NCBI GenBank assembly: GCA_948470905.1
Contig: CAOKQK010000028.1
Location: 1 to 39,052, forward strand
DNA: 39,052 nucleotides
Reading direction: 5' to 3'
Source: an uncultured Lachnospiraceae bacterium
GTDB taxonomy: Bacteria > Bacillota > Clostridia > Lachnospirales > Lachnospiraceae
Shown one piece after another: positions 759 through 19,486 of this stretch (position 1 is the first letter of the stretch; each line of letters begins with the position of its first letter). Under the pieces are notes generated by a model. It was not told where the DNA came from. It was given only the letters and a program-made list of their open reading frames with translations, and made no database searches. The position numbers and the translations under genes were made by a program.

Positions 759-854
759 GTCCAAAAAGCGGCGGACAGGTGCCAAAAAATGGAGAACAGC
801 GCATAAAAACGGGTACTGCGAAAAGGCGGGGCACGGCGCAGGAGGCGGAGTGTT

Positions 855-899
855 ATGAAAAGCAGAGCACAGCGCAGGACACAAGGCGCCGCGGTATAA
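855..899 (+). CDS. Possible 14-residue leader peptide upstream of rfbB
   Basis: An ATG at 855 is preceded by AGGAGG (840-845) at 9-nt spacing and encodes MKSRAQRRTQGAAV before a TAA at 897-899. The stop codon runs into the AAAGGAG ribosome binding site of rfbB, so translation of the two could be coupled. The peptide is basic (four Arg/Lys in its first eight residues). No family is recognised. The only support is the well-placed ribosome binding site, and the region contains near-repeated GCACRGCGCAGGA words that could create it by chance. Confidence 0.25.
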   Translation: MKSRAQRRTQGAAV

Positions 900-910
900 A
901 GGAGAAAAGC

Positions 911-1993
911 ATGCGAACTTATCTGGTGACAGGCGGGGCCGGCTTTATCGGCTCAAATTATATTCATTACATGTTCAGGAAATACGGGGATGAGATCCGT
1001 ATCATCAACGTGGACGCCCTGACCTATGCGGGTAATCTGGAAAATTTGAAGGATATTGAGGACAGGACAAACTATACCTTTGTGAAGGCGGATATCTGCG
1101 ACAAGGAGGCGATATCCAGGGTTTTTGCGGAGAATGATATCGACAGGGTTGTCCACTTTGCGGCGGAGAGCCATGTGGACAGGAGCATCCTCAATCCGGA
1201 GGTCTTTGTGCAGACCAATGTGCTGGGGACGGCAGTCATGCTGAACTGCGCGAAGGCGGCCTGGGAGCTTCCGGACGGCAACTTTAAAGAGGGTAAGAAG
1301 TTCCTTCATGTGTCCACGGACGAGGTGTATGGCTCCCTTCCGGAGGACGAGAACGCCTTCTTTTATGAGACTACGCCCTATGCCCCGCACAGCCCTTATT
1401 CTGCAAGTAAGGCAAGCTCGGATATGCTGGTGAAGTCCTATATGGACACCTATCATTTCCCGGCGAATATTACCAATTGTTCCAACAATTACGGGCCTTA
1501 TCAGTTCCCGGAGAAGTTTATCCCCCTGGTCATCAACAATGCGCTTCAGGGCAGGGACCTGCCGGTGTACGGCGACGGGAAGAATGTCCGTGACTGGCTC
1601 TTTGTGGAGGATCATGCCAAGGCTATCGACATGGTGCAGGAGCAGGGCAGGCTGTTCGAGACTTATAATATCGGCGGTCACAATGAGAAGCAGAATATTG
1701 AGATCATCCATATCATAATCGAGACGCTGCAGGAGATGCTGTCTGAGGACGATCCGAGGAAGGCGCTTGTGACGACGGATCTGATCACTTATGTGGAGGA
1801 CCGGAAAGGGCATGACCGCAGGTATGCCATCGCTCCCGACAAGATCAGGAAGGAGATTGGCTGGTATCCGGAGACAAACTTCAAGGAGGGCATCCGCAAG
1901 ACCATCGTCTGGTTCTTCGAGCATGAGGACTGGATGAGGAATGTCACCAGCGGGGATTATGAGAAGTACTATGCCGAGATGTATAAAAAGTAA
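911..1993 (+). CDS. rfbB: dTDP-glucose 4,6-dehydratase
   Basis: This enzyme converts dTDP-glucose to dTDP-4-keto-6-deoxyglucose, the second step of dTDP-L-rhamnose synthesis in the cytoplasm. The 360-residue product matches the usual family length. It opens with the NAD-binding TGGAGFIG (residues 7-14) of extended short-chain dehydrogenases. It carries the family's STDEVYG segment with Thr136, Asp137 and Glu138, and the YSASK active site with Tyr163 and Lys167. The start at 911 is set by AAAGGAG about 6 nt upstream; an upstream extension to 779 in the same frame has no ribosome binding site and low-complexity content. It is the first intact gene after the promoter at 730-758 and is followed by rfbA, so it opens the polysaccharide operon. 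Confidence 0.95.
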   Translation: MRTYLVTGGAGFIGSNYIHYMFRKYGDEIRIINVDALTYAGNLENLKDIEDRTNYTFVKADICDKEAISRVFAENDIDRVVHFAAESHVDRSILNPEVFVQTNVLGTAVMLNCAKAAWELPDGNFKEGKKFLHVSTDEVYGSLPEDENAFFYETTPYAPHSPYSASKASSDMLVKSYMDTYHFPANITNCSNNYGPYQFPEKFIPLVINNALQGRDLPVYGDGKNVRDWLFVEDHAKAIDMVQEQGRLFETYNIGGHNEKQNIEIIHIIIETLQEMLSEDDPRKALVTTDLITYVEDRKGHDRRYAIAPDKIRKEIGWYPETNFKEGIRKTIVWFFEHEDWMRNVTSGDYEKYYAEMYKK

Positions 1994-2125: not shown

Positions 2126-2995
2126 ATGAAGGGAATTATATTGGCAGGCGGTTCCGGCACAAGGCTTTATCCTTTGACCAGGGCTATCTCCAAGCAGATC
2201 ATGCCGGTTTATGACAAACCGATGATATATTATCCGCTTTCCACCTTGATGCTGGCGGGGATCCGGGAGGTGCTGATCATTTCCACGCCCAGGGATCTGC
2301 CTGTATTCCAGGAGCTTCTGGGAGACGGAACCCAGCTGGGCATGGAATTTTCCTATGAGGTGCAGGAGCAGCCAAGGGGGCTTGCGGACGCTTTTATCAT
2401 TGGAGAAAATTTTATCGGGAATGACAGGGTCGCGCTGGTTTTGGGGGATAATATCTTTTATGGCCAGAGCTTTTCCAGGCTGCTCAAGGAGGTTGCCGCC
2501 AGGGAAAAAGGCGCCACGATCTTCGGCTATTATGTGCGTGATCCCAAGGAGTACGGCGTGGTGGAATTTGACGAGAACGGCAAGGCGCTCTCCATTGAGG
2601 AGAAGCCGGAGAAGCCCAAGAGCAATTATGCGGTTCCGGGCCTGTATTTTTATGATAATGAGGTGGTGGAGATCGCAAAGAATGTAAAGCCTTCCGCCAG
2701 GGGTGAGATTGAGATCACCAGCATCAACAATGAATACCTCAGACGGGGGACGCTGCAGGTGGAGACAATGGGGCGCGGTTTCGCGTGGCTGGACACGGGG
2801 AATCACGACGCGCTTCTGGACGCTTCGGACTTCGTGGCGGCGTTCCAGAAAAGGCAGGGGCTTTATATTTCCTGCATCGAGGAGATTGCGTACAGAAGAG
2901 GGTTCATTGACAGGAATCAGCTTCTGAGCCTGGCGGAGCCTTTGATGAAAACGAATTATGGCAAATATCTGGTAGAGGTAGCAAATGGACTCTAA
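2126..2995 (+). CDS. rfbA: Glucose-1-phosphate thymidylyltransferase
   Basis: This enzyme makes dTDP-glucose from dTTP and glucose-1-phosphate, the first and regulated step of dTDP-rhamnose synthesis. The product is 289 residues, the normal RmlA length. Visible motifs are the nucleotide-binding [11 protein letters not shown] (residues 8-18), [19 protein letters not shown] and LGDNIFYG. The ribosome binding site is AAAGGG at 2112-2117. Just upstream, an ATG at 2109 with its own AAAAGG opens a six-codon frame (MKGILI) whose TGA overlaps the rfbA ATG; it looks like a partial duplication of the rfbA start. The 3' end overlaps the GH25 gene by 11 nt, so the two are translationally linked. Confidence 0.96.
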
Positions 2996-4256: not shown

Positions 4257-4410
4257 GGGGCTTGCCTGGTGTGCTGCAGGATTGACGTCCTGTCAGCCAG
4301 CTGAGGGGGCGTTCCGCGGGCAATGAGCCGGAGCCGGTAAGATTTTGGCCAGTGCAGCGGGGTTGTTGACTGAAAATACGATGGGATGAAAGAAAGGTGT
4401 GGATATTATT

Positions 4411-4965
4411 ATGGGCAAGATTACAGTTGAGACATGTGAGATCGAGGGCCTGAAGGTCATTACGCCGACGGTGTTCGGGGATGCCAGGGGTTATTTTTAT
4501 GAGGTTTATCAGTATGAGGATTACAAGGCGGCGGGAATCCCGCAGGTCTTTGTCCAGGATAATCAGTCGGCGTCCAGAAAGGGAGTGCTGAGGGGGCTGC
4601 ATTTTCAGAAGCAGTTTCCCCAGGACAAGCTTGTGCGGGTGATACGGGGAGAGGTCTTTGACGTGGCGGTAGATCTGCGGGAAGGCTCCGAAACCTATGG
4701 GAAATGGTTCGGCGTGCTATTGTCTGAGGAGAATAAGAAGCAGTTTTTTGTGCCGAAGAACTTTGCCCATGGATTTCTTGTGCTGTCTGATTACGCGGAG
4801 TTTTGTTATAAAGTGACAGATTATTATCATCCCAACGATGAGGGCGGGATCATTTACAACGACCCTGCTATCGGTATCCAGTGGCCTGTCCCGGAGGGGA
4901 TGGAGCTGATCCTGTCCGAGCGGGATACCAGGTGGGGCGGGATTGAGAGCGTAAGGCAGCAGTAA
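4411..4965 (+). CDS. rfbC: dTDP-4-dehydrorhamnose 3,5-epimerase
   Basis: This enzyme epimerises C3 and C5 of dTDP-4-keto-6-deoxyglucose, the third step of dTDP-L-rhamnose synthesis. From the ATG at 4411 the product has 184 residues, the usual length of this cupin-fold family. Motifs seen are DARGYFYEVY, VQDNQSASRKGVLRGLHFQ with the conserved His64, and VPKNFAHGFLVLSD. A GTG at 4399 would add four residues but sits directly on the AAAGG site at 4393-4397, so the ATG is preferred. The fourth enzyme of the pathway, rfbD, is not in the window. The gene is followed 15 nt later by wzm. Confidence 0.94.
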   Translation: MGKITVETCEIEGLKVITPTVFGDARGYFYEVYQYEDYKAAGIPQVFVQDNQSASRKGVLRGLHFQKQFPQDKLVRVIRGEVFDVAVDLREGSETYGKWFGVLLSEENKKQFFVPKNFAHGFLVLSDYAEFCYKVTDYYHPNDEGGIIYNDPAIGIQWPVPEGMELILSERDTRWGGIESVRQQ

Positions 4966-4980: not shown

Positions 4981-5964
4981 ATGAAGATTAGCAAGAAGCT
5001 CAGCATTACCATATTCTCGCTGGTTGGGCTGGCGATGGCAGTCATTATCATAGTGCATCAGAATCACGGTCCCAGCGCTGATCCCGCGCAGGAGTTGGTC
5101 AAGAAGATCATTTCCTGCGCGGTGATCCTGGGGGCATGTATCGGTTTTGCGGTGTGGTATGACAAGTTTATCACACTTCCGGCGGAGCTGCTGCAGAGCA
5201 GGCACCTGATCTGGAAGCTGGCAAAAAACGACTTTAAGAAACGGTATGCAGGCTCTTATATGGGTGCTGTGTGGGCGCTGGTGCAGCCGGTGGTGACGGT
5301 GCTCATGTACTATGTGGTCTTTGAAAAGGTCATGGGCAATCCCGGGCGGGGGGATGACAGCGTGCCGTTTGTACTGTTCCTCACGGCGGGGCTGGTTCCA
5401 TGGTTTTATTTCACGGAGGCGCTGAACAGCGGGACCAACGCTCTTTTGGAGTACAATTATCTTGTGAAGAAGGTGGTCTTCAAGATCAGCGTGCTGCCTA
5501 TCATCAAGATTATTGCCGCCACCTTTATCCATGTCTTTTTTGTGTTCGTGCTGCTGATTGTAGCCGCCTGTTACGGTTATTTTCCCACATTGTATACGTT
5601 GCAGATCGTGTATTACAGTATCTGCCTCTTTGTATTTGTGCTGGCGCTGTGCTACAGTACCTGCGCTGTTGTGATCTTTTTCAGGGATTTGGTGCAGATT
5701 ATCAATATCGTGCTGCAGATCGGCATGTGGGCGACTCCGATCCTGTGGAATATGGACGGTCTGGGACCTGTGTGGGTGACGATACTTAAGCTCAATCCGC
5801 TGGTGTATATTGTAAACGGTTACAGAGATGCGGTTTATGGGCAGCGGTGGTTCTGGCAGGATTTTTTCTCCATGATGTATTTTTGGATCGTGACGGTGGT
5901 ACTCTTTGGATTGGGAGCTGCTGTCTTTAAAAGGTTGAAGGTGCATTTTGCGGATGTGCTTTGA
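4981..5964 (+). CDS. wzm: ABC-2 polysaccharide export permease (Wzm/TagG type)
   Basis: This is the membrane half of an ABC exporter for an undecaprenyl-linked polysaccharide. The 327-residue protein is about 60 residues longer than a usual Wzm because two extra membrane segments (about residues 8-26 and 42-60) precede the core. The core starts near residue 72 with the amphipathic LIWKLAKNDFKKRYAGSYMGAVWALVQP, characteristic of the family, and has six membrane spans. FRDLVQIINIVLQIGMWATPILW and LNPLVYIVNGYRDAVYG are the conserved C-terminal motifs. The next gene, 155 nt on, encodes the matching ATPase. What the two additional helices do is unknown. Confidence 0.93.
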   Translation: MKISKKLSITIFSLVGLAMAVIIIVHQNHGPSADPAQELVKKIISCAVILGACIGFAVWYDKFITLPAELLQSRHLIWKLAKNDFKKRYAGSYMGAVWALVQPVVTVLMYYVVFEKVMGNPGRGDDSVPFVLFLTAGLVPWFYFTEALNSGTNALLEYNYLVKKVVFKISVLPIIKIIAATFIHVFFVFVLLIVAACYGYFPTLYTLQIVYYSICLFVFVLALCYSTCAVVIFFRDLVQIINIVLQIGMWATPILWNMDGLGPVWVTILKLNPLVYIVNGYRDAVYGQRWFWQDFFSMMYFWIVTVVLFGLGAAVFKRLKVHFADVL

Positions 5965-6119: not shown

Positions 6120-7865
6120 ATGGATGAGGTACAAAATAAGGTGCAGGGATCAGGTACAGCGGCGAAAAACATGTCAGTAGAAACAATATCAATGCAGGAA
6201 ACACCGGAAAAAACGCAGTCGGAACGATTGCCGGTGATCCAGATCAAGGATCTGGTAAAGATATACAAGCTGTATGATAAGCCCAAGGACCGTATGAAGG
6301 AGGCTCTGGGCTTTGGGAAGAAGCAGGTGCATAAGCAGCACTATGCCCTGAAGGGTATCAATATGGATATCTATAAGGGAGAGACGGTGGGTATTATCGG
6401 CACCAACGGCTCTGGAAAGTCTACGATCCTGAAAATTATAACGGGTGTTTTGAATCCCACAAGCGGGCAGGTGACGGTGAACGGGCGTATTTCCGCCCTG
6501 CTGGAGCTGGGCGCAGGCTTCAACATGGAGTACAACGGGATTGAGAATGTGTATCTGAACGGTACCATGATGGGCTTTTCGGAGAAGGAGATTGACGGGA
6601 AGCTACCGGAGATCCTGGAATTTGCGGATATTGGGGATTATATCTATCAGCCCGTCAGGACTTATTCCAGCGGCATGTTCGTGCGGCTTGCCTTTGCTGT
6701 GGCGATCAATATTGAGCCGGAGATCCTGATCGTGGACGAGGCTCTTTCTGTGGGCGACGTATTTTTCCAGGCAAAATGTTATCATAAATTTGAAGAATTT
6801 AAGGAGATGGGCAAGACCATCGTCTTTGTCAGTCATGATTTAAGCAGCATCAGCAAGTACTGTGACAGGGTGGTGCTGTTGAATCAGGGCGCTCTTTTGG
6901 GGGAAGGCTCGCCCAAGGAGATGATAGATGCATATAAGCGTGTGCTGGTAGGGCAGTATGAGCTTCCGGAGTCCCAGCAGGGGGAGAGCCTGCTGGAGGA
7001 TCCGGAGGTAAGGCATGCTGCCAAGGGAGCCGCGGCGGAGCTGTCGGATGCAGGAGCGGGTTCCGGTACGCCGGGGGCGGGCTCGCCGGGAACGGGAGCG
7101 GGCTCGCCGGAAGCGGGAACAACTTCCGGTACGACAGGTACGGGCTCGCCGGGAACGGGAGCAGCTTCCGGTATGACAGGTGCGGGCTCGCCGGAAGCGG
7201 GAACAACTTCCGGTATGACAGGTGCGGGTTCGCCGGATGCGGGAGCAGCTTCCGGTACGACAGGGGCAGGCTCGCCGGAAACGGGAACAGCTCCTGGTAT
7301 AACAGGTACGGGCTCGCCGGATGCGGGAAAGGCTTCGGGAGCGGCTGGTGCTGTGGGATCCGGGCAGGGGAGGGAAACTGCGGAAAAGAGGCAGGGGCAC
7401 CAAATGGGTGTCAACCCCAAACTTTTGGAGTATGGGACGAAGCAGGCAGAGATCCTGGAATTTTACCTGACAGATGACAGAGGGGTGCGCACCACGGCGG
7501 TGCTGAAGGGCAGCGAGTTTACGGTACACATGAGGGTGCGGTTTTATGATCATATTCCGGCGCCTATCTTTGCTTTTACCATTAAAAATGTCATTGGGAC
7601 AGAGATCACCGGGACGAATACCATGCTGGAAAAGGCTTTTCTGGAGAGCGCGGAGCCGGGGCAGGTAAAGAATATCACGTTTGCCCAGAGGATGAACCTG
7701 CAGGGCGGGGAATATCTGATCTCCTTTGGGGTGACGGGATATAACGGGGATGCCTTTGAGGTGTATCACAGGCTATATGACGCTTTGAGCATCACAGTAG
7801 TCTCGGACAAGAATACGGTGGGCTATTACGACATGGAGTCCACGGTCAAAGTGACGGACGGTTAG
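6120..7865 (+). CDS. wzt: Polysaccharide export ATPase with C-terminal glycan-binding domain and variable repeat linker
   Basis: This is the ATP-hydrolysing half of the polysaccharide exporter. The ATPase domain (about residues 38-285) has Walker A GTNGSGKST (94-102), the relaxed signature YSSGMFVRLAF typical of Wzt/TagH proteins, and Walker B ILIVDEALSVGD. A Gly/Ser/Thr/Pro-rich linker (about 310-420) contains six 14-residue tandem repeats. The last 150 residues (from about LEYGTKQAEILEFYL) look like the Wzt C-terminal beta-sandwich (PF14524-like), which in E. coli O9a binds the modified chain end before export. No ribosome binding site is convincing: the ATG at 6120 gives the longest frame, and the ATG at 6171 is a fair alternative. 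It is flanked on both sides by family A intergenic repeats. Confidence 0.92.
   Translation: MDEVQNKVQGSGTAAKNMSVETISMQETPEKTQSERLPVIQIKDLVKIYKLYDKPKDRMKEALGFGKKQVHKQHYALKGINMDIYKGETVGIIGTNGSGKSTILKIITGVLNPTSGQVTVNGRISALLELGAGFNMEYNGIENVYLNGTMMGFSEKEIDGKLPEILEFADIGDYIYQPVRTYSSGMFVRLAFAVAINIEPEILIVDEALSVGDVFFQAKCYHKFEEFKEMGKTIVFVSHDLSSISKYCDRVVLLNQGALLGEGSPKEMIDAYKRVLVGQYELPESQQGESLLEDPEVRHAAKGAAAELSDAGAGSGTPGAGSPGTGAGSPEAGTTSGTTGTGSPGTGAASGMTGAGSPEAGTTSGMTGAGSPDAGAASGTTGAGSPETGTAPGITGTGSPDAGKASGAAGAVGSGQGRETAEKRQGHQMGVNPKLLEYGTKQAEILEFYLTDDRGVRTTAVLKGSEFTVHMRVRFYDHIPAPIFAFTIKNVIGTEITGTNTMLEKAFLESAEPGQVKNITFAQRMNLQGGEYLISFGVTGYNGDAFEVYHRLYDALSITVVSDKNTVGYYDMESTVKVTDG
7098..7349 (+). repeat. Six in-frame 42-bp tandem repeats inside wzt
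   Basis: The units start at 7098, 7140, 7182, 7224, 7266 and 7308, each exactly 42 bp. The consensus peptide is [AT]GSP-[EDG]-[AT]-G-x-x-[SP]-G-x-[TA]-G, 14 residues. Units 1 and 3 differ at one base (Thr/Met codon). A less regular 42-nt half-unit pair (7056-7097) precedes them. The length is a multiple of three, so copy-number change would lengthen or shorten the linker without breaking the frame. Confidence 0.93.
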
Positions 7866-7940: not shown

Positions 7941-8013
7941 ATCCGCCGGAGGCTCTGAGGACACCGCCGGTTGTGGTAGAAGTGAAGAATGGTACTGGAA
8001 TGGGAGGATGAGG

Positions 8014-11000
8014 ATGATTGAGGAGATCGGGAAGGTAAAACTGGATTACAGCAGGTATCCGGGGGAGGATTTTTACTGTGACGGTGCGGTGGAGGATGAA
8101 CTTCTGGATATTGTGAAGACTTTGCCTCCGGAGGAATATGTGAAGGTAGTGGAGGAGCGGAATAATTGGCCGATCTTGTACCATCTTTCGCCCCTGAGAC
8201 AGAACATCATCGAATGGATTCCCATGAGGAAGGACGCGAAGGTGCTGGAGGTTGGCAGCGGCTGCGGCGCCGTTACGGGGGCGCTGGCAGGCAAGGCGGG
8301 GAGCGTCACCTGTGTGGATCTTTCCAAAAAGCGCAGCCAGATCAATGCGTACCGCAACAGGCAGTGTGACAATATTACAATCCATGTGGGCAATTTCAAG
8401 GACATTGAGCCGGAACTTCCCCGAGATTTTGATTTTATCTTTCTCATAGGGGTGTTTGAGTATGGGCAGAGCTATATAGGCGGGAACACGCCCTATCATG
8501 ATTTCCTGAAGATACTCCTGCCTCACCTTGCGCCGGGCGGAAGGCTTGTGATAGCCATTGAAAATAAATATGGTCTGAAATATTTTGCAGGCTGCAAGGA
8601 GGACCATCTGGGGACTTATTTCTCCGGCATTGAGAATTATGCCGGGGGCGGCGGGGTGCGTACTTTCAGCAGGAACGGGCTGGAGCAGATCTTTGAGAGC
8701 TGCGGGGTAGAAAAGTATCAGTTCTATTATCCCTATCCGGACTATAAATTTATGACAACACTTTACAGCGACGCGCGTCAGCCGGGCAGGGGGGAGCTGG
8801 TCAATAATGCCCGTAATTTTGACAGGGACAGAATGCAGCTTTTTGACGAGAAGGATGCCTTTGACGGGATTGCGGAGGATGAGCTGTTCTCTGTATTTTC
8901 CAATTCCATATTGGCGGTTGTGGGCGACGGTTTTGACACGGAGTTTGTAAGGTATTCCAACGAAAGGGCTCCCCAGTACGCTATCCGCACGGAGATCGGC
9001 AGGGACAGCACGGGAGAGAGGGTCGTCAGGAAATATCCCTTCGGCAGCGCTGCCAGAGAGCACGTGTCCGATATGGCGGCTGCATATGAGAAGCTTGCGG
9101 AGAGATACCAGGGCGGGAAGCTGGAGATCAACAAGTGCAGGCTGGCGGAGGATGAGAGCGGGATGTACGCCTGCTTTGAGTTTGTGCAGGGGGTACCGCT
9201 CACCGAGCTTTTGGATGACTGTCTAAAGAGAGATGACCTGGAGGGCTTTTACGGGTATTTTCAGAGGTATCTGGAATGCATAAGCTATAACGAAAGCTTC
9301 CCTTTTGTGGATTATGACCTGATCTTTTCCAATATTCTGGTGGATACCAGCCGGGATAAGTGGACATTGATCGACTATGAGTGGACTGTGGATGTGTCGG
9401 GCGATTCCAGAGAGCTTGCCTTCCGGGCTGTTTACTGTTATCTGCTGGAGAATAAAAAGCGGGAGAAGATCCGGCAGGAGGTCATTTTGGACAGGCTTGG
9501 CATCAGCGAGGAGGATGCTCAGGTTTATCGTGAAGTGGAGATGAAGTTCCAGAGGGCTGTGACGGGGAACAGGGCAACGCTGGCGCAGATACGTGACAGG
9601 ATCGGCAACAGCGTCACGGATCTCCAGGAGATGACGGACAGGTATCATGACCTGCTGAAAGTAAACAGGGTGCAGATTTTTGAGGACAGAGGTGAGGGAT
9701 GCAGTGAGAAAGAGTCCTATTTTGCCTGGGATGCCTTTAAGAGCGAGAAGCTCATAGAGCTGGAGCTCCATGTGGACGGGGAGGTGGAGCTTCTGCGCAT
9801 CGATCCGGGATTTCTGCCATGTGCGGTGAGGGTGCAGGAGATGACCTTTAACGGGAAAGATATCCTGGAGGACTGGAGCAGTATCTTATCCGCCAACGGC
9901 AGGATTATGATGCCTGTGGAACAAAGAAATGGCAGGGGCTGCCCGGTTATTGTGCTGCCTACGGAAGACCCGAATGTGAATGTGGACCTGCGTAGGTTGG
10001 AGCGCAGGAAGTCAAATATCCTCTGGGTGCGCATGGAGATGGAGGGGATTATCCTGCCTATGGCGCAGAGCCTGGCGGATTTTGCGGAAGCATATGAAGA
10101 CAGATGCAGACAGTATGAAGAAATAAAGCAGGAATGTGCGGACAGGGAAGCGCAGATTGCGGAGCTGACGGCACAGGCTGCAGATCTGGAGGCAAAGCGG
10201 GATGAACTGGACTGGAAGCTGAACCGCATTGTGACGAATCCTCTCTGGAAGCTGAGCAAGCCGGCGAGAAGCTGTTTCCACTGGGCGTCCAGGCAGAAGA
10301 ACAGACTGAAAAACTGCGGTGGCCCAAGGGGAGTGCTGCATAAGATTGGATACAAAAAGAGAGAGCGGGAGGCAATGAAGCAGTTTGGGACGGCAAGCTT
10401 TCCCTCTCAGGAGCAGGCGGCTGCGGAAGCGTCGGCGACCTTTCCATACATGCCGAAGGTCAGCATCCTGGTCCCTCTGTGGAATAATCAGCGGGAATTT
10501 CAGATTGAGATGCTGGATTCCGTGATGAACCAGACTTATCAGAACTGGGAGCTGTGCCTGGCGGACGGCTCGGACGGGGAACATGGCTATATTGGGGACA
10601 TCTGTGAGGAATATGCGGCAAGATCGGGCGGCAGGATCGTGTACAGGAAGCTGGAGAAAAACGACGGCATCTCCGGGAATACCAACGCCTGCCTGCAGAT
10701 GGCGACAGGAGAGTACATCGGGCTTCTGGACCAGGATGACATCCTGCATCCCAGCGTGCTGTACGAGTATGTGAAGGCAATCAACCAGCAGGGTGCGGAC
10801 TATCTCTATTGTGATGAGACTACCTTTAAGAGCGGCAATATCAACCATATGCTTACCATGCATTTTAAGCCTGACTATGCTCCGGACAATCTGCGCGCGA
10901 ACAATTATATCTGCCATTTCAGCGTTTTTAAGAAAGATCTGCTGGACGGAAACGAGCTGTTTCGGACCAAATATGACGGCAGCCAGGATCATGACATGAT

Positions 11001-12108
11001 TCTTCGTCTGACGGACAACGCAAAGAAGGTGGTCCATGTGCCAAGGCTGATGTATTACTGGCGGAGCCACGCGGGCAGCACCGCAGCCAGCATCGAGGCG
11101 AAGCCCTATGCCATCCAGGCGGCAAAGGAGGCTGTGTCGGAGCATCTGCGCAAGAATGGTTTCGGCAATTTCCGGATTGAGAGCACCAGGGCATTTGAGA
11201 CGATTTTCCGCATCCGGTATCAGGTGATGGGCATGCCGAGAATATCAATCATCATTGCCAACCGGGATCATATGGAGGATCTGGAGCGCTGTATTTCTTC
11301 TATATTGAATAAGTCCACTTATGGTAATTATGAGATCATCATTGTGGAAAACAACAGCACCACGCAGGAAATCCGGGACAGCTACGGCAGGCTGCTGGGT
11401 TGTGCCTATGATCCGGATCAGGTGCAGCACAGCCCGGATGGCAGGATTACCATAGTCACTTATAAGGGTGAGTTCAATTATTCCGCAGTAAACAATCTGG
11501 GGGTGCAGTATGCCACCGGGGAATATATCCTGCTTTTGAATAACGACACATCTGTCATAACAGTCAATTGGATGGAGGAGCTTCTCATGTACGCCCAGCG
11601 TGAGGACGTGGGCGCAGTGGGGGCGAAGCTTTATTATGAGGACAGGACTATCCAGCACGCGGGGGTGGTCATTGGGCTGGGCGCCCACAGGACGGCAGGG
11701 CACACCCATTACAAGCAGCCCAGACAGAACCTGGGCTATATGGGAAGGCTTTGTTATGCGCAGAATGTAACCGCTGTCACCGGGGCGTGCCTTCTGGTGA
11801 AAAAGGAACTGTACATGGCGGTGGGGGGGCTTGACGAGGGCTTTGCCATCTCGTTAAACGATGTGGATTTCTGCCTGAAGCTTCGGGAGAGGGGATATTT
11901 GAACGTGTTTACGCCCTTTGCGGAGCTGTATCACTATGAGTCAGTCTCACGGGGGTTGGACGACAGCGGCGAGAAAGCGGAGCGCTATAATAAGGAGTCC
12001 GAGAAATTCCGGGAGAAATGGAAAAAGGTGCTGGAGGCGGGAGATCCCTATTACAATCCCAATTTTTCCCTGGACAGGAGCGATTATTCGCTTAAGATAA
12101 AGGGTTGA
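8014..12108 (+). CDS. WbdD-like methyltransferase-kinase-coiled coil fused to two GT2 glycosyltransferases
   Basis: This 1364-residue cytoplasmic protein probably extends and caps the exported polysaccharide. Domains in order: a class I SAM methyltransferase (about 50-240; VLEVGSGCG with Gly81-Ser82-Gly83); a kinase-like domain (about 315-520) with Lys340 in VVRKYP, helix-C Glu359, hinge CFEFVQGVPLTELL, catalytic-loop DYDLIFSN (Asp435, Asn440) and metal-site LIDYEW (Asp454); a beta-rich linker; a coiled coil (about 690-740); GT2-1 (about 812-1070; LLDQDD, Asp906-Asp909); and GT2-2 (about 1075-1330; LLNNDTS, Asp1178). Methyltransferase-kinase-coiled coil is the order of E. coli O9a WbdD. The start at 8014 is chosen for GGGAGG at 8002-8007; an ATG at 8008 abuts that site. 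It follows a Wzt that has a substrate-binding tail. The kinase call rests on motif pattern only. Confidence 0.88.
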   Translation: MIEEIGKVKLDYSRYPGEDFYCDGAVEDELLDIVKTLPPEEYVKVVEERNNWPILYHLSPLRQNIIEWIPMRKDAKVLEVGSGCGAVTGALAGKAGSVTCVDLSKKRSQINAYRNRQCDNITIHVGNFKDIEPELPRDFDFIFLIGVFEYGQSYIGGNTPYHDFLKILLPHLAPGGRLVIAIENKYGLKYFAGCKEDHLGTYFSGIENYAGGGGVRTFSRNGLEQIFESCGVEKYQFYYPYPDYKFMTTLYSDARQPGRGELVNNARNFDRDRMQLFDEKDAFDGIAEDELFSVFSNSILAVVGDGFDTEFVRYSNERAPQYAIRTEIGRDSTGERVVRKYPFGSAAREHVSDMAAAYEKLAERYQGGKLEINKCRLAEDESGMYACFEFVQGVPLTELLDDCLKRDDLEGFYGYFQRYLECISYNESFPFVDYDLIFSNILVDTSRDKWTLIDYEWTVDVSGDSRELAFRAVYCYLLENKKREKIRQEVILDRLGISEEDAQVYREVEMKFQRAVTGNRATLAQIRDRIGNSVTDLQEMTDRYHDLLKVNRVQIFEDRGEGCSEKESYFAWDAFKSEKLIELELHVDGEVELLRIDPGFLPCAVRVQEMTFNGKDILEDWSSILSANGRIMMPVEQRNGRGCPVIVLPTEDPNVNVDLRRLERRKSNILWVRMEMEGIILPMAQSLADFAEAYEDRCRQYEEIKQECADREAQIAELTAQAADLEAKRDELDWKLNRIVTNPLWKLSKPARSCFHWASRQKNRLKNCGGPRGVLHKIGYKKREREAMKQFGTASFPSQEQAAAEASATFPYMPKVSILVPLWNNQREFQIEMLDSVMNQTYQNWELCLADGSDGEHGYIGDICEEYAARSGGRIVYRKLEKNDGISGNTNACLQMATGEYIGLLDQDDILHPSVLYEYVKAINQQGADYLYCDETTFKSGNINHMLTMHFKPDYAPDNLRANNYICHFSVFKKDLLDGNELFRTKYDGSQDHDMILRLTDNAKKVVHVPRLMYYWRSHAGSTAASIEAKPYAIQAAKEAVSEHLRKNGFGNFRIESTRAFETIFRIRYQVMGMPRISIIIANRDHMEDLERCISSILNKSTYGNYEIIIVENNSTTQEIRDSYGRLLGCAYDPDQVQHSPDGRITIVTYKGEFNYSAVNNLGVQYATGEYILLLNNDTSVITVNWMEELLMYAQREDVGAVGAKLYYEDRTIQHAGVVIGLGAHRTAGHTHYKQPRQNLGYMGRLCYAQNVTAVTGACLLVKKELYMAVGGLDEGFAISLNDVDFCLKLRERGYLNVFTPFAELYHYESVSRGLDDSGEKAERYNKESEKFREKWKKVLEAGDPYYNPNFSLDRSDYSLKIKG

Positions 12109-12238: not shown

Positions 12239-13960
12239 ATGAGTTTTATGGACGAGTTTCATTTCTGGCTGGAGGACGATTACTTTGACCAGAGCACAAA
12301 AGACGAGCTTCTTGCCATCCGCAATGAACAGGGTGAGATTGAGGAGCGCTTTTACAAGGAGTTGGAGTTCGGCACCGGCGGACTTCGCGGTATCATCGGT
12401 GCGGGCACGAACCGCATGAACATATATACGGTCCGAAAAGCCACCCAGGGGCTTGCAAACTTTATCCTGAAGCAGGGAACCCAGGAGAAGGGGGTTGCCA
12501 TTGCCTATGATTCCAGGAATATGTCCCCGGAATTTGCGGACGAGGCGGCGCTCTGCCTTGCGGCAAACGGCATCAAGGCTTATGTGTTTGAATCGCTGCG
12601 CCCTACGCCGGAGCTTTCGTTTGCGCTCCGCACGCTGGGCTGTACCGCGGGTATTGTGGTGACGGCGAGCCACAATCCGCCCGAGTACAACGGCTATAAG
12701 GTATACTGGGAGGACGGCGCCCAGGTGACGGCGCCCAAGGATAAGCAGATCATAGAGGAAGTCCAGAGCATCAAGGACTACCATACCGTAAAGACCATGT
12801 CCAAAGAGGATGCACAGGCTAAGGATCTGTATCAGGTCATCGGCAAAGAGATAGATGACAAGTACATGGCTGAGCTGAAGAAGCAGATCATCCACCCTGA
12901 TGTGATCGCGGAGGTCGCGGATGACTTAAAAATCGTGTACACACCTCTCTGCGGGACCGGAAATGTTCCCGTGAGACGGATCCTGTCAGAGCTTGGTTTC
13001 AAGCATGTGTACGTGGTTCCCGAGCAGGAAAATCCCGATCCCAGGTTTACCACATTGGATTATCCCAACCCGGAGGATCCCAAGGCGTTTACTTATGCCC
13101 TGCGCCTGGCGAAAGAGAAGGACGCGGATATTGTCCTTGCCACCGACCCGGATGCAGACCGTCTCGGCGTGTACGCAAAGGATACGGCGACCGGGGAGTA
13201 TGTGTCCTTTACCGGCAATATGTCCGGCATGCTGATTGCGGAGTACATCTTAAGGGAGAGGACAGCCACAGGCACAATGCCTGCAAACCCTGCTCTGGTG
13301 ACGACGATTGTTACCACCAATATGACACGCCCCATCACGGCGGCTTACAATGTAAAGCTCATTGAAGTGCTCACGGGCTTTAAATTCATTGGCGAGCAGA
13401 TCAAGCTCTTTGAGCAGACCGGCAGCAACAATTATGTGTTTGGCCTGGAGGAGAGCTACGGCTGTCTGGCAGGCACCCATGCCAGGGACAAGGATGCGAT
13501 TGTAGCCGTGATGTGTCTCTGCGAGGTGGCTTCCTACTGCAAGAAGCACGGCAAGACCCTGTGGGATATGATGCTTGAAACTTACGAGAAATACGGCTAC
13601 TTTAAGGAGTCCCAGTACACCATCACCCTCAAGGGGATCGACGGCTCCAGGCAGATTGCGGCAATCATGGATAAGCTCCGCCAGAACCCGCCCAAGGCAT
13701 TCGGTGAGCGCAGGGTTCTGAAGTTCAGGGATTATCAGACCGACCGTATCCTGGATATGGCTACCGGAGAGGAGACAAAGACGGGACTGCCCGGGAGCAA
13801 TGTGCTGTACTTTGAACTTCCCGACGATGAGTGGTGCTGCGCGCGCCCCTCCGGCACCGAGCCAAAGATCAAGTTCTACATGGGCGTAAAGGGCACAAGC
13901 CTTGAGGATGCGCAGGCGAGGCTGGAGCAGCTGACGGAAGATGTGAAGGCTGTGCTGTAA
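12239..13960 (+). CDS. pgcA: Phospho-sugar mutase (phosphoglucomutase/phosphomannomutase)
   Basis: This enzyme interconverts hexose 6-phosphate and hexose 1-phosphate. Here it would supply glucose-1-phosphate for RfbA. The 573-residue length and motif set fit the PgcA-type alpha-D-phosphohexomutases of Firmicutes: FGTGGLRGIIG near the N-terminus, the phosphoserine loop VVTASHNPPEYNGYK, the metal loop ATDPDADRLG, the sugar loop GLEESYG and the phosphate loop RPSGTEPKIKFY. Specificity for glucose or mannose cannot be told from sequence. The ribosome binding site is GAGGGAAAG. A 130-nt gap with a TAAAAT at 12161-12166 but no good -35 precedes it, so it may have its own weak promoter. Strong hairpins follow the stop codon. 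Confidence 0.94.
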   Translation: MSFMDEFHFWLEDDYFDQSTKDELLAIRNEQGEIEERFYKELEFGTGGLRGIIGAGTNRMNIYTVRKATQGLANFILKQGTQEKGVAIAYDSRNMSPEFADEAALCLAANGIKAYVFESLRPTPELSFALRTLGCTAGIVVTASHNPPEYNGYKVYWEDGAQVTAPKDKQIIEEVQSIKDYHTVKTMSKEDAQAKDLYQVIGKEIDDKYMAELKKQIIHPDVIAEVADDLKIVYTPLCGTGNVPVRRILSELGFKHVYVVPEQENPDPRFTTLDYPNPEDPKAFTYALRLAKEKDADIVLATDPDADRLGVYAKDTATGEYVSFTGNMSGMLIAEYILRERTATGTMPANPALVTTIVTTNMTRPITAAYNVKLIEVLTGFKFIGEQIKLFEQTGSNNYVFGLEESYGCLAGTHARDKDAIVAVMCLCEVASYCKKHGKTLWDMMLETYEKYGYFKESQYTITLKGIDGSRQIAAIMDKLRQNPPKAFGERRVLKFRDYQTDRILDMATGEETKTGLPGSNVLYFELPDDEWCCARPSGTEPKIKFYMGVKGTSLEDAQARLEQLTEDVKAVL

Positions 13961-13995: not shown

Positions 13996-14105
13996 ATCAA
14001 AGACCTCGCAGCAGGCTGCGGGGTCTTTGAACCCTGCGGCTTTTGCCAAGACCCCAAGCCAGAGAATCCTGCTTCTCTGGCTTGGGGCACATTGCCTGCT
14101 GGAAT
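13996..14105 (+). repeat. Double-hairpin intergenic repeat family B, copy 1 (also likely terminator)
   Basis: The first hairpin pairs AAAGACCTCGCAG (13999-14011) with CTGCGGGGTCTTT (14016-14028), 13 bp with one G-T pair. The second pairs CCCCAAGCCAGAGAA (14052-14066) with TTCTCTGGCTTGGGG (14073-14087), a perfect 15-bp stem. Shared landmarks with 37665-37804 are ATCAAA, CCGCAGCA.GCTG, TTGACCCT-type and GCGGC words between the hairpins, and a CATTGCC.GC.GGAAT end. The first hairpin follows the phosphohexomutase and could end its transcript, although its T-run is only three bases. Confidence 0.65.
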
Positions 14106-14123
14106 CAAAAGATGGAAAGTCTG

Positions 14124-14166
14124 TTCCCTGCCTGGATGAAAAGAATGCTGCAATCCAGGCAGGGAA
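14124..14166 (+). repeat. Third strong hairpin in the leader of the GT2 gene
   Basis: TTCCCTGCCTGGAT (14124-14137) pairs perfectly with ATCCAGGCAGGGAA (14153-14166), 14 bp around a 15-nt loop. It lies between the family B repeat and the 14-bp tandem array, so the whole 300-nt gap between the mutase and the glycosyltransferase is structured. Confidence 0.75.
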
Positions 14167-14170
14167 TCCT

Positions 14171-14240
14171 ATTGCGAGAGATGTATTGCGAGAGATGTAT
14201 TGCGAGAGATGAGTTGCTAGGGATGAGTTGCAAGGGATGT
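14171..14240 (+). repeat. Five 14-bp tandem repeats directly before a glycosyltransferase start
   Basis: The units are ATTGCGAGAGATGT (14171, 14185), ATTGCGAGAGATGA (14199), GTTGCTAGGGATGA (14213) and GTTGCAAGGGATGT (14227), followed by a partial sixth (ATGCAAGGGGG) that supplies the ribosome binding site of the gene starting at 14262. Each unit contains a purine-rich word and an ATG. The period is not a multiple of three, so adding or losing a unit would change the frame of any translation starting upstream. Confidence 0.9.
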
Positions 14241-14261
14241 ATGCAAGGGGGAAACCTTCAC

Positions 14262-15620
14262 ATGGGTAAGATCAATATTGCAAACCTGAAAAAAACAGCA
14301 TATTATTTAAGGCGGAACGGATTAAAACGTACTCTGGACGCGGTCAGGGAGAGATTTGACGGCAGCGTGCAGCCTCCGTACACTTATGTGCCGCCCACAA
14401 GACAGGAGCTTGCGGGGCAAAGGGAGAAGGCAGAGCAGGAGGGCTTCACCGTGTCCTTCAGCATTGTGGTTCCCACATATCGGACGCCGGAGCGGTATCT
14501 TCGGGAGATGATAGGCTCGGTTTGCGCCCAGAGCTATCCAAACTGGGAACTGATCATAGCGGATGCCACGGAAGGAGGGGAAGTCCGGGAGGTGGTGGAG
14601 TCGCTCTGCAGGCAGGAAGACAGAATCCGGTATATCCGTCTTCCCGGCAACGGCGGCATCCCGGCAAACACCAACGCGGGCATTCTCCAGGCAGGGAAGG
14701 CGTATACGGGGCTGCTGGATCATGATGATCTCCTGGAGGGAAATGCCCTGTATGAAATGGCGGCTGTGATCGAAGGGGCGAAAAGGGATGGAAGGCAGCT
14801 TCAAATGCTCTATTCCGATGAGGATAAATGCGACGGGGATGGAAGGGCATATTTTGAGCCGAACTTTAAGGAGGACTTTAACCTGGATCTGCTCCTGACA
14901 AATAATTACATTTGTCATTTTATGGTGATGGAGACAGGGCTGATCAAGGAGCTTCTGCTGCGGGGGGAGTACAACGGTGCTCAGGATTTTGACCTTGTGC
15001 TGCGGGCGGCGGACAGGCTTTTTGGCAGGGAGGAATACATAGCGCATATTCCCAAGGTGCTCTATCACTGGCGCTGTCACAGCCTCTCCACGGCGGAGAA
15101 TCCCCAAAGCAAGCTGTATGCCTATGAGGCGGGACGGCGGGCAGTACAGGACTTTCTGGACAGAAGGAAGTGGCGCGCCAGAGTCTTTGACACATCCCAT
15201 CTGGGATTTTATGCGGTGAAATATGAGGATAACCCTCTGAAAATAAGGCAGGACCTGGGCGCGGTGGGGGGGAGGCTTTTGCATAAGGGAAAAACTGTCA
15301 GCGGCAGGCTCTCGGAAACGGGGGATATTTTTTATGAGGGGCTTTCTGTGAATTACAGCGGTTATCTACACCGTGCCGTCCTGGCCCAGGACGCGGAGGC
15401 ACTGGATATCCGCAATCTGGAGGTGGCGCCGTCCTGGCGGGAGAGCTTTGAGCGGATTGTGGGAGTGCCCTATGCCACCCTGCCCGGCTCGGAGGTCTTC
15501 GATGCCTCCACCCTGCCGGAGGGTACGGACTATATTGCGCTCAGCCTCAGAGTGTGCCGTGAGCTTAGACGCCAGGGGCTCAGGCTTTTGTACCTCCCGG
15601 AGAGAAGTTTGGAAGTATAG
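14262..15620 (+). CDS. GT2 glycosyltransferase with a residual second domain
   Basis: This cytoplasmic enzyme probably adds a sugar to the growing polysaccharide. The ATG at 14262 is preferred because AAGGGGG lies at 14245-14251; the open frame runs back to 14043 through hairpins and repeats and has no support there. Residues about 65-290 form a GT-A/GT2 domain: FSIVVPTYRTPERYLREMIGSV, the nucleotide-sugar motif LLDHDD (Asp153-Asp156), and a YNGAQDFDLVLR segment. It resembles GT2-1 of the large fusion protein. The last 120 residues (GAVGGRLL through LRVCRELRRQGLRLLYLP) resemble only the C-terminal half of a second GT2 domain, as if the first half had been deleted. The acceptor and donor sugars are unknown. 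Confidence 0.87.
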   Translation: MGKINIANLKKTAYYLRRNGLKRTLDAVRERFDGSVQPPYTYVPPTRQELAGQREKAEQEGFTVSFSIVVPTYRTPERYLREMIGSVCAQSYPNWELIIADATEGGEVREVVESLCRQEDRIRYIRLPGNGGIPANTNAGILQAGKAYTGLLDHDDLLEGNALYEMAAVIEGAKRDGRQLQMLYSDEDKCDGDGRAYFEPNFKEDFNLDLLLTNNYICHFMVMETGLIKELLLRGEYNGAQDFDLVLRAADRLFGREEYIAHIPKVLYHWRCHSLSTAENPQSKLYAYEAGRRAVQDFLDRRKWRARVFDTSHLGFYAVKYEDNPLKIRQDLGAVGGRLLHKGKTVSGRLSETGDIFYEGLSVNYSGYLHRAVLAQDAEALDIRNLEVAPSWRESFERIVGVPYATLPGSEVFDASTLPEGTDYIALSLRVCRELRRQGLRLLYLPERSLEV

Positions 15621-15652: not shown

Positions 15653-16717
15653 ATGGAAAATCAGATAAACAGACAGGCAGGCTATTCTAAGGATAACAAA
15701 ACCACCGTCCAGGCGGACCGCACAAAGAGCGGCTGTCTGGAAAAAATAACGGTTGTTATACCAAATTACAACGGCATAAAATTCATAGGCGGATGTCTGG
15801 AGTCCCTGTTTGGGCAGGACCCTGACACGCCGGAGTATCGCGTGATCATGGTGGACAACGGCTCTGAGGACGGGAGCAGGGAGCTGGTAGAAGAAAAGTT
15901 TCCCCAGGTGGAGGTGATCGCCCTGCCGGAAAATACCGGCTTCAGCCATGCGGTGAACCGGGGCATCCTTGCCGCCGGGGCTCCCTATGTGATCCTTCTG
16001 AATAACGATACGAAAGTGGCGCCTTCCTTTATTAAGGCGCTTTACGACGCCATGGAGGAGAGGGGAAGGAAGGCATTTTCCGTAAGCGCCAAAATGCTCA
16101 TGTGGGACAGGCCGGAGCTTCTGGATGGGGCAGGGGACAGATACTGCGTGCTGGGATGGGCTTATGCCCGCGGCAAGGGAAAGCCTGCAGCGGAGTACGG
16201 ACAGGGCTGCAGGGTCTTTTCGGCGTGCGCCGGAGCGGCGGTCTACAGGAAGTCAGTGTTTGACGAGATAGGGTACTTTGATGAAAGCCATTTTGCCTAT
16301 CTGGAGGATCTGGACATAGGCTACCGGGCGGCAATCCATGGCTATGAGAATTATTATGAACCCAAGGCGGAAGCAGTCCATTATGGCAGCGCGTCCAGCG
16401 GTTCCCGCTACAATCGCTGGAAGACGGAGCTGGCGGCGGCCAACAGCGTCTATTGTATTGCAAAAAACATGCCCTTTTTGCAGCTGGTCTGGAATTTGCC
16501 GTTTTTAATGATGGGATTTTTGTTAAAATATCTCTTTTTTGTAAAAAAAAGGATGGGAACCTGCTATTTGAGGGGGCTGGCAAAAGGTCTGAAGCGCTGC
16601 CTGTCTTCTGAGGGAAAAGCCCATAAGGTCAGCTTTCGCAGGCAGAACCTGACATATTATTTTTCCATACAATGGCAGCTTTATGCCAATACCCTCAGGT
16701 TTCTTAAGAAATATTAA
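15653..16717 (+). CDS. GT2 glycosyltransferase (RfbN/WbbL-like)
   Basis: This 354-residue enzyme probably transfers a deoxyhexose such as rhamnose. The GT-A domain begins near residue 28 with ITVVIPNYNGIKFIGGCLESL and has the LLNNDTKV donor-site motif and LEDLDIGYRAAIHGYENYYEP, typical of COG1216 rhamnosyltransferase-like proteins. A hydrophobic segment near residues 275-295 (LVWNLPFLMMGFLLKYLFF) would tie it to the membrane where the lipid-linked acceptor sits. It starts 33 nt after the previous glycosyltransferase, with only a weak purine-rich site, so it is probably translated in the same operon. Sugar specificity is inferred from the dTDP-rhamnose genes nearby. Confidence 0.88.
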   Translation: MENQINRQAGYSKDNKTTVQADRTKSGCLEKITVVIPNYNGIKFIGGCLESLFGQDPDTPEYRVIMVDNGSEDGSRELVEEKFPQVEVIALPENTGFSHAVNRGILAAGAPYVILLNNDTKVAPSFIKALYDAMEERGRKAFSVSAKMLMWDRPELLDGAGDRYCVLGWAYARGKGKPAAEYGQGCRVFSACAGAAVYRKSVFDEIGYFDESHFAYLEDLDIGYRAAIHGYENYYEPKAEAVHYGSASSGSRYNRWKTELAAANSVYCIAKNMPFLQLVWNLPFLMMGFLLKYLFFVKKRMGTCYLRGLAKGLKRCLSSEGKAHKVSFRRQNLTYYFSIQWQLYANTLRFLKKY

Positions 16718-16789
16718 GAAACATCTTCATAATTTCCTAAACTGTTTTTTTTATAATAATTAAAGCAACGTGAATGTCAGGTGGCGCTT

Positions 16790-18196
16790 ATGATAAAAGA
16801 TAATCAGAAAGTATTTAACCGATTGATGGTAATTATCGATGCTGCCATTACGGCAGCATCTTTTATGCTGGCATATTTTGTGAAATTTTATGTTTTAAAT
16901 GCCGGCCCGGGACCCGGTGTGCTTCCTGTAAGGGATTATCTTCTGCTGCTGGTTTTTATCGTACCCCTCTATGCGATGCTGTATTATTTCTGCAACGTAT
17001 ATGCACCCAAGAGGACAGTGCGCCGACGCTTTGAGATTTACGGCATCCTGAAAGCAAATACCATCGGGATCGTGGCGCTGATTGTCACCCTGTATATGAT
17101 CGTGCGGGTGTTCAACTTTTCCCGGTCCGTCATGGTGATATTTTATGTTTTCAATGTTTTCTTTACTTCGTGCTTCCGCCTTGCCCTGAGAAAGGGTCTT
17201 AACACGATAAGGAGCAAGGGTTACAACCTGAAGCACATTCTGCTGGTGGGCTACTCCCGTGCAGCGGAGGAATATATCGACCGTTTAAACGATTATCCCC
17301 AGTGGGGGTATGTGGCATGCGGGATCCTGGATGACCATATCCCGGTAGGGACAATGTACAAAGGCGTAAAGGTCCTGGGACGTCTGGACAACCTGGAGGT
17401 GATACTTCCGGAGAACGAATTGGACGAGATTGCCATTACCCTCTCGCTGAGAGACTACGATTACCTGGAAAGCATTGTGTCAATCTGTGAGAAGTCGGGC
17501 GTACACACAAAGTTCATCCCGGATTACAACAGCCTGATTCCCGGCAGGCCCTACACGGAGGATCTGATGGGGCTTCCGGTCATCAATATCCGGTATGTGC
17601 CGCTGACCAACACCGGCAATATCATGGTCAAGAGAGTGATGGATGTGATCGGTTCGCTGGCGGGGATCGTAGTGACATCGCCTGTGATGCTGCTGGCGGC
17701 GGCGCTGGTCAAGCTGACCAGTCCCGGCCCTGTAATCTTTAAACAGGAGAGGGTGGGGCTGCACAACAAGCCTTTTTACATGTACAAGTTCCGCAGCATG
17801 GAGCTGCAGGCTCCCGGCGAGGAGAAAAAGGCTTGGACAGTCAAAAACGACCCGCGCGTGACGGGGGTGGGGAAATTCCTGAGAAAGACCAGCCTGGATG
17901 AGCTTCCCCAGCTTTTTAACATCCTGAAAGGGGATATGAGCCTGGTGGGCCCGAGGCCGGAAAGACCGCTTTTTGTGGAGAAATTCAGGGAGGAGATCCC
18001 TCGATACATGGTGAAGCATCAGGTGCGGCCGGGGCTTACAGGCTGGGCGCAGGTGAATGGGCTGAGAGGGAACACTTCCATCAGGAAACGGATCGAATAT
18101 GATATTTATTATATCGAGAACTGGACCCTGGGGCTTGATATAAAAATTATATTAATGACCTTTTTTACGGGCTTTATCAACAAGAACGCATATTAG
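16790..18196 (+). CDS. Undecaprenyl-phosphate sugar-1-phosphate transferase (WbaP/CpsE family)
   Basis: This membrane enzyme transfers a sugar-1-phosphate to undecaprenyl phosphate and so starts the repeat unit or primer. The 468-residue protein has four or five N-terminal membrane spans, a CoA-binding-like middle domain ([16 protein letters not shown], near residue 145), and a Bac_transf catalytic domain from about residue 280. The latter shows [62 protein letters not shown] and the C-terminal [14 protein letters not shown] chose the ATG at 16790 because AGGTGG lies at 16779-16784; a GTG at 16781 overlaps that site. A TATAAT at 16752-16757 suggests a promoter, but no -35 is evident. Likely donors are UDP-Glc, UDP-Gal or UDP-GlcNAc; which one cannot be told. 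Confidence 0.93.
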
Positions 18197-18292: not shown

Positions 18293-19486
18293 ATGGCGAC
18301 AGCAGAAGCAAAGAGTACAAGGCAGCAAGGGGCGAGGAAAAAAAGGAAGATCATTATTTTTGCGTTTGAGATCTGTCTGATCTTGATCATGTTGGGAGTG
18401 TTGTGGCTGGTGATGAAGACTCCCTCTGAGGGACCGAGCAGAGTGGTGATCGAGCCTGGAAATATTGCCATCAATGAGGATATCCAGAAAGGGAAGGACG
18501 AGGGGGAAAGCCCCATGCTCGGCTATTTAAATGTGGCGCTGTTTGGTGTGGACGCGAAAACAGACAATCAGTTGTACAAGAGCAGCCGCAGCGACAGCAT
18601 GATGATCGCCAGCATTAATCTTGATACGGGGGATATCAAGCTGGTCAGCGTGTACCGTGACACCCTGCTGGATCTGGGGGATCTGGGCGTTACCTATGAT
18701 GACAAGAAAAACAAAAAGATAGTGGATAATAATACCCTGGAAGATCTGAGCGACGACATTTTCCAGAAATGTAATGCGGCGTATTCTTACGGCGGCGCGG
18801 AGCAGGCGCTGAAGATGCTGAACATGAATCTGGATATGGATATCGAAACCTTTGTCACGGTGGGGTACCAGGGGTTAAGGACGGTGGTGGACGGACTGGG
18901 CGGCATATGGATTGATGTGGATGAGACAGAGCTGCTGCATATCAATAATTATCAGATGGATGTGGCAAATGTCTTAAAGTGCAGTTATACGCCGGTGACG
19001 AACACGGGCTACCAGAAACTGGACGGCCTGCAGGCGACGGCTTTCTGCCGTATCCGCTATGTCAGCGGAGGAGATTTCAAGCGCACATCTAATCAGAGAG
19101 AGGTGCTGAAGGCAATTGAAAAAGAGGCAAAGAGCAAGGATCTGGCTACCCTCACTGAGATCTTTACCAGCTGTATGGAGGAAAAGATCATTTATACCAA
19201 TATCACCAATGAGCAGATCCTGAAGCTGCTCTCCAACATCACAAAATACAGCATTGTGGAGGAAGGCGGTTTCCCTAACGAGAGCAACCGTACTGTGGCG
19301 AACATTGATCAGATAAGGGGCTCCAGCGTGGGAAGCACGGTTATTCCCGTGAGTCTGGAAGAAAATGTCGTATGGCTGCATCATTTCCTGTTTGACGATA
19401 AGGAGTATGAGGTCACTGACAGGGTCAAGAAAATCAGCAAGGTAATCGCTGACGAGACGGCGGTGTATATTAACAGCAAGAAGTAA
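18293..19486 (+). CDS. LytR-CpsA-Psr (LCP) family cell-wall polymer ligase
   Basis: LCP enzymes transfer undecaprenyl-pyrophosphate-linked polymers onto peptidoglycan outside the membrane. A basic N-terminus and a single span (about residues 20-42) make it a type II membrane protein. The LCP domain (about 80-290) has LFGVDA, SSRSDSMMIASIN, LVSVYRDTLLDL, GGIWIDVDE and AFCRIRYVSGGDFKRTSNQR, including the Arg and Asp residues known to hold the polyprenyl pyrophosphate. The start has AAGGAG a few bases upstream. Its place right after the initiating transferase points to ligation of the locus's own polymer. Bond type and acceptor are inferred from the family. Confidence 0.93.
   Translation: MATAEAKSTRQQGARKKRKIIIFAFEICLILIMLGVLWLVMKTPSEGPSRVVIEPGNIAINEDIQKGKDEGESPMLGYLNVALFGVDAKTDNQLYKSSRSDSMMIASINLDTGDIKLVSVYRDTLLDLGDLGVTYDDKKNKKIVDNNTLEDLSDDIFQKCNAAYSYGGAEQALKMLNMNLDMDIETFVTVGYQGLRTVVDGLGGIWIDVDETELLHINNYQMDVANVLKCSYTPVTNTGYQKLDGLQATAFCRIRYVSGGDFKRTSNQREVLKAIEKEAKSKDLATLTEIFTSCMEEKIIYTNITNEQILKLLSNITKYSIVEEGGFPNESNRTVANIDQIRGSSVGSTVIPVSLEENVVWLHHFLFDDKEYEVTDRVKKISKVIADETAVYINSKK

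Follow-up and report, generated by a model that had tools for sequence, protein, structure and literature searches.

Described terminator-polymerases and the Lachnospiraceae locus

Enzymes that both extend a surface polysaccharide and terminate it have been described in a small number of systems, of which ORF6 of Klebsiella pneumoniae O7 is the closest to the protein considered here. According to its description, O7 ORF6 runs from a methyltransferase through an unannotated kinase, an Ig-like domain and a coil to two GT2 glycosyltransferase domains, adds rhamnose using dTDP-rhamnose, and phosphorylates and methylates the terminal rhamnose, while its D441A variant is inactive and leaves the polymer unexported in cells (Kelly et al. 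2024, PMC11231755). The same account presents Klebsiella O12 WbbB as a single polypeptide that polymerises and terminates, its coil serving as the ruler, and WsaE of the Gram-positive Geobacillus stearothermophilus is described with three active domains, a plain 2-O-methyl rhamnose cap and export through Wzm/Wzt (PMC2943079). Here we compare with these systems a single open reading frame (ORF; positions 8014..12108, + strand, with an alternative upstream ATG possible at 8008) in a 39,052-nucleotide stretch, hereafter the window, of an uncultured Lachnospiraceae bacterium (assembly GCA_948470905.1, contig CAOKQK010000028.1). We consider it likely that this ORF encodes a Gram-positive terminator-polymerase of the O7 ORF6 type, acting on a rhamnan that leaves the cell through a Wzm/Wzt exporter equipped with a cap-binding domain. 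One chain would then probably both build a rhamnose-rich surface chain and cap its end with methyl-phosphate, as a preliminary description of this DNA had proposed and as homology to O7 ORF6 suggests. Because O7 ORF6 itself polymerises and caps with methyl-phosphate, a single chain that joins polymerase and terminator is no novelty, the arrangement being published for O7 ORF6, O12 WbbB and WsaE.

Domain architecture and the kinase-fold domain

Pfam and AlphaFold together give the order methyltransferase, kinase fold, beta domain, long helix, GT2, GT2, which bears out the earlier claim that a methyltransferase, a kinase fold, a coil and two GT2 domains share one ORF. The S-adenosylmethionine (SAM) methyltransferase domain, recognised by Pfam, predicted structure and residue mapping, spans residues ~15-250 (8056..8763), and is followed by the kinase-fold domain at residues ~308-520 (8935..9573) with D435, N440 and D454-x-E456-W457. 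Between kinase and coil, at the same place as in O7 ORF6, AlphaFold predicts an all-beta domain resembling a carbohydrate-binding module (residues 554-678, 9673..10047) that the earlier domain list had omitted. This region has no Pfam match in the window protein, and at the sequence level BLASTP did not find it in the best 80 of at least 544 named-genome relatives. The coil corresponds to a long helix predicted by AlphaFold (residues 680-741, 10051..10236), and the two GT2 domains beyond it, identified by Pfam and motif mapping, carry a DXDD motif (DQDD, residues 906-909) in the first (10462..10935) and an NXD motif (NND, residues 1176-1178) in the second (11236..11940). Alignment via a Pseudomonas asturiensis homologue, a protein of 1457 aa encoded downstream of wzm/wzt-type genes, places the SAM site of the window methyltransferase at Y21, Y56, G81, G83, D102 and Y150. 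Five of the six published O7 ORF6 SAM-site residues are the same in the window and the sixth is changed from E to D; the P. asturiensis homologue has all six, identical in letter and number.

A search with the predicted structure of the isolated kinase domain (308-520) returned 50 VIA-align rows, all kinases by title, which upholds the kinase fold previously assigned to residues 315-520 and supports it with modest strength. By sequence, the region gave weak kinase matches only among solved structures (CDKL3, E 0.014; GCN2, E 0.024), the matches of the window protein being chiefly GT2 enzymes and methyltransferases, and Pfam returned two sub-threshold matches for the window protein, to choline kinase at 0.02 and to Pkinase at 0.06, either family being matched by a single one of the 15 members examined. 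Residues D435, N440, E456 and W457 are present in 62/62 sequences of the family alignment, in which the catalytic Asp, the Asn and the D-x-E-W residues as a set are invariant or nearly so; within the genus they are kept in 35/35, a count based on 34 genus proteins with query coverage of 95% or more, from which second copies of a locus and proteins cut short or split had been removed. K340, by comparison, is a feature of the genus and varies across the wider family.

These residues bear on the alternative that survives best, namely that the protein acts like WsaE, methylating the terminal rhamnose itself to give a methyl ether, with a kinase fold that merely binds substrate or is inactive. WsaE offers a Gram-positive precedent, joining a methyltransferase and two rhamnosyltransferase domains in one chain with Wzm/Wzt export, and the incomplete conservation of K340 would fit a kinase fold relieved of catalysis. 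The description of WsaE, however, includes no kinase, whereas the window protein has a kinase-fold domain whose catalytic positions are conserved throughout the family and the genus, and the corresponding O7 kinase is active and loses its activity in D441A (PMC11231755). We regard a WsaE-like mode of action as unlikely.

Affiliation with the O7 ORF6 family

The preliminary description had likened the protein to WbdD (Escherichia coli O9a / Klebsiella O3), and as regards domain order the likeness stands: WbdD has the same succession of methyltransferase, kinase and coil, to which the window protein adds the beta domain before the coil, and the gene order in E. coli HS is wzm-wzt-terminator-polymerase. 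Foldseek with residues 1-760 placed five WbdD entries within the top 50, with 4ax8 at rank 10 (E 1.4e-8, rmsd 19.4); its alignment has 564 columns over 450 residues and, judged by that length, may cover both methyltransferase and kinase. As the closest family, however, WbdD is ruled out by sequence. The genus kinase profile (14 sequences) aligns with 61 relatives of the Gram-negative family at an hhalign probability of 99.2 (E 3e-19, 182/238 columns), the window sequence being excluded from both alignments, compared with 0.4 against the protein at the WbdD position of E. coli HS and 0.1 in a control against the methyltransferase profile. It is because the kinase aligns there, and not with that of WbdD, that we place the window protein in the O7 ORF6 family. 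The E. coli HS protein, chosen for its length of 708 codons and its place beside wzt and wbdA, and entitled 'class I SAM-dependent methyltransferase' in its record, was the one WbdD sequence used; it gave no BLASTP match to the kinase of the window genus. Alignment A2 matched it in the methyltransferase alone (probability 66), and the named-relative alignment A3 in the end of the coil only (50 columns, probability 19.5). WbdD was also missing from the VIA-align result for the isolated kinase domain (50 rows), an absence that is not evidence by itself. At the sensitivity used, the two kinases are thus unrelated by sequence, and the systems differ further in their polymers, mannan versus rhamnan, and in that the polymerase WbdA is a separate protein.

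The named-genome scan behind these alignments yielded at least 593 stretches with at least 544 relatives, Gram-negative ones, of which the best 80 were used; alignments A3 and A5 leave out 19 of these 80 loci (14 thinned at 85% identity and 5 others). Among the best 80, some of which are ended by a contig edge, 59 proteins are longer than 1000 residues and 19 no longer than 760, and in 27 a single chain carries the two homologous GT2 domains, their order unchanged. With O7 ORF6, the window protein shares the order of methyltransferase, kinase, coil and two GT2 domains, with a predicted beta domain where O7 ORF6 has its Ig-like domain, the DXDD and NXD motifs, the SAM-site residues, a catalytic Asp (441 there, 435 here) and wzm/wzt and rml neighbours, a likeness drawn via homologues rather than the O7 sequence itself and not extending to K340, which is specific to the window's genus. 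The two differ in setting, O7 being a Gram-negative O antigen system whereas the window host is monoderm by its markers (Spo0A present, Omp85 not found) and belongs to a genus that mostly keeps the halves as separate genes. The cap added by Klebsiella O12 WbbB is 3-deoxy-D-manno-oct-2-ulosonic acid (Kdo). This protein resembles that of the window in being a one-chain polymerase and terminator with a coil, but it has three glycosyltransferase modules, of families GT99, GT102 and GT103, and a methyltransferase-kinase is absent.

No Gram-positive methyltransferase-kinase terminator was found in the literature searched, to which subscription papers mostly did not belong, and the term 'Gram-positive' is absent from the main text of PMC11231755, whose supplement, holding further orthologues, lay outside the search. 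Within this literature, a Gram-positive branch of the O7 ORF6 family seems to be unreported.

Separate and fused genes within the genus

Within the genus, the halves of the window protein are usually separate genes, and their fusion is an exception. The terminator half (residues 1-689) has a match in 88/90 same-genus genomes, partly as fragments only. Eight genus loci compared for gene order all show rmlC upstream of wzm and the order wzm, wzt and the terminator gene, here called A, with an extra ORF of ~495 aa between wzm and wzt in two of them. Gene A, of ~690-750 residues, ends shortly past the beta domain and lacks the long coil; it stands alone in six loci and is joined to a B-like GT2 protein in the remaining two (L035, 1479 aa; L034, 1122 aa). 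Gene C, which encodes the coil and two GT2 domains with 66-81% identity to the C-terminal part of the window protein, comes after A in 7/8 loci, while in L048 A is followed by pgm. In four loci a further gene, B, separates A from C, and L050 and L030 have A directly followed by C. By comparison with these loci, the junction of A and C in the window falls at approximately 10075..10092. A query spanning it matched 133/138 genus genomes and, among the matches listed, the window's alone crosses without a stop; in the same search the junction is crossed with a single TAG in G048 and G189. In G047, A and C share a frame with TGA in between. At loci L164 and L165, of two genus genomes, A and C adjoin in the same frame with a lone TAG between them.

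Coil length separates the fused from the unfused proteins. From a conserved Tyr to a conserved Trp-Lys/Arg, there are 40 residues in 31/31 unfused C proteins read (11/11, then 20/20 more, 16 by script and L163, L150, L156 and L161 by eye, owing to a differing letter or a match starting too early), and the corresponding segment of the window fusion (693-746) has 54. The extra 14 residues equal two heptads in length. This suggests that coil length matters, and by analogy with the published WbdD and O12 systems (PMC11231755) the coil may set chain length.

An assembly or chimera error, with the genes really separate as in relatives, could also have produced an apparent fusion in a genome that is fragmented (157 contigs) and 89.9% complete, the more so as the unbroken frame was seen in 1/138 genus genomes among the listed matches. 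The junction is nevertheless in frame, with homologous ends joined and no intergenic sequence left over, and direct succession of A and C without B (L030, L050) and fusion of A to a B-like protein (L034, L035) both have precedents in the genus. The coil, too, argues against a chimera, as its 14 extra residues occur in none of the 31 unfused C proteins read, and we hold an artefact to be improbable.

Beyond the genus, the kinase profile matches 7/398 genomes of a phylum sample, the window's own counted, and methyltransferase and kinase are separate neighbouring ORFs in four of the six outside loci fetched, as they are in L031. Among plasmids, four records were found, two with 27-28% identity across 80% and 74% of the query and two aligning in the methyltransferase only; in viral contigs the genus profile gave 33 pattern matches and no relatives. 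The window genome also holds a relative of gene B, which its operon lacks, on another contig (L143:6638-8806, G000:C18; 42% identity), and a second methyltransferase-kinase-like protein fused to a LicD domain (L042:4089-6944, G000:C2), in which Glu, judged by eye, apparently occupies the position of the catalytic Asp.

Operon context and proposed mechanism

The fused gene is embedded in an operon on the + strand. Upstream lie rmlB (dTDP-glucose 4,6-dehydratase, 779..1993), rmlA (glucose-1-phosphate thymidylyltransferase, 2126..2995), an rmlC family gene (dTDP-4-dehydrorhamnose 3,5-epimerase, 4399..4965), the gene for Wzm, an ABC-2 polysaccharide exporter permease (4981..5964), and that for Wzt (6120..7865), an ABC ATPase with a C-terminal Wzt_C cap-binding domain (437-572, E 3.3e-40). 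Downstream follow a phosphoglucomutase/phosphomannomutase family enzyme (12239..13960), two additional GT2 genes (14043-15620 and 15653-16717), a PF02397 sugar-phosphate transferase as candidate initiating enzyme (16781..18196) and a LytR-CpsA-Psr (LCP) family gene as candidate for wall attachment (18293..19486). From rmlA, rmlB and rmlC of the operon, together with an RmlD-family gene that the genome carries at another place (G000:C2:96930), we infer that the chain sugar is rhamnose. The occurrence of Wzt_C in the window and in 10/10 other Wzt proteins tested, eight of them from genus relatives, likewise points to export of a capped chain by Wzm/Wzt.

Under the reading as an O7 ORF6-type terminator-polymerase, the two C-terminal GT2 domains would elongate a lipid-linked, rhamnose-containing chain from dTDP-rhamnose. 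The growing end would reach the N-terminal head across the coil, where the kinase would phosphorylate the terminal sugar and the methyltransferase would then methylate the terminal phosphate; Wzt_C would bind the capped end, Wzm/Wzt would export the chain and the LCP enzyme would presumably attach it to the wall. That the kinase instead targets a lipid carrier, a protein or a side-chain sugar, so that the protein is no chain terminator, is conceivable for a fold whose substrates vary among APH, choline kinase, Bud32 and lanthipeptide kinases, but is very improbable given homology to a proven terminator and the position of gene A downstream of wzm and wzt, with Wzt_C, in 8/8 genus loci. More tentatively, and at somewhat less than even chances, the genus as a whole may cap a rhamnose-rich wall chain with methyl-phosphate by means of a terminator without a long coil and a 40-residue coil on the polymerase, the window species having merged both into one gene with a coil longer by 14 residues.

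Several repeats and one further gene were observed along the window. In-frame 42-bp (14-codon) tandem repeats (7072-7336) occupy the Wzt linker between ATPase and cap-binding domain, and this Wzt has 581 aa compared with 424-469 aa in eight genus relatives. Near the start of the GT2 ORF at 14043-15620 are ~5 copies of a 14-bp repeat (14170-14242), whose period is not a multiple of three and which could switch or shift expression of that ORF. A GH25 lysozyme-family gene (2985-4256) lies within the operon between rmlA and rmlC, with a relative directly upstream of rmlC in 5/8 genus loci and none seen at that place in three. Farther along, a 51-bp tandem repeat lies in a glmS-like ORF (21482-21614), and 33/117-bp tandem repeats surround the start of an HtrA-like ORF (22982-23250).

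Implications

If the protein is indeed a terminator-polymerase of the O7 ORF6 type, methyl-phosphate-capped, ruler-controlled assembly, known from Gram-negative O antigens, would extend to a Gram-positive wall glycan, among close relatives whose modules range from separate genes through partial fusions to a full fusion. With a coil of one length in the unfused proteins read and 14 residues more in the fusion, the molecular-ruler idea can be tested by comparing the polymers of sister species and, should capping prove genus-wide, the window fusion would serve as a natural experiment on the part of the coil in setting chain length.
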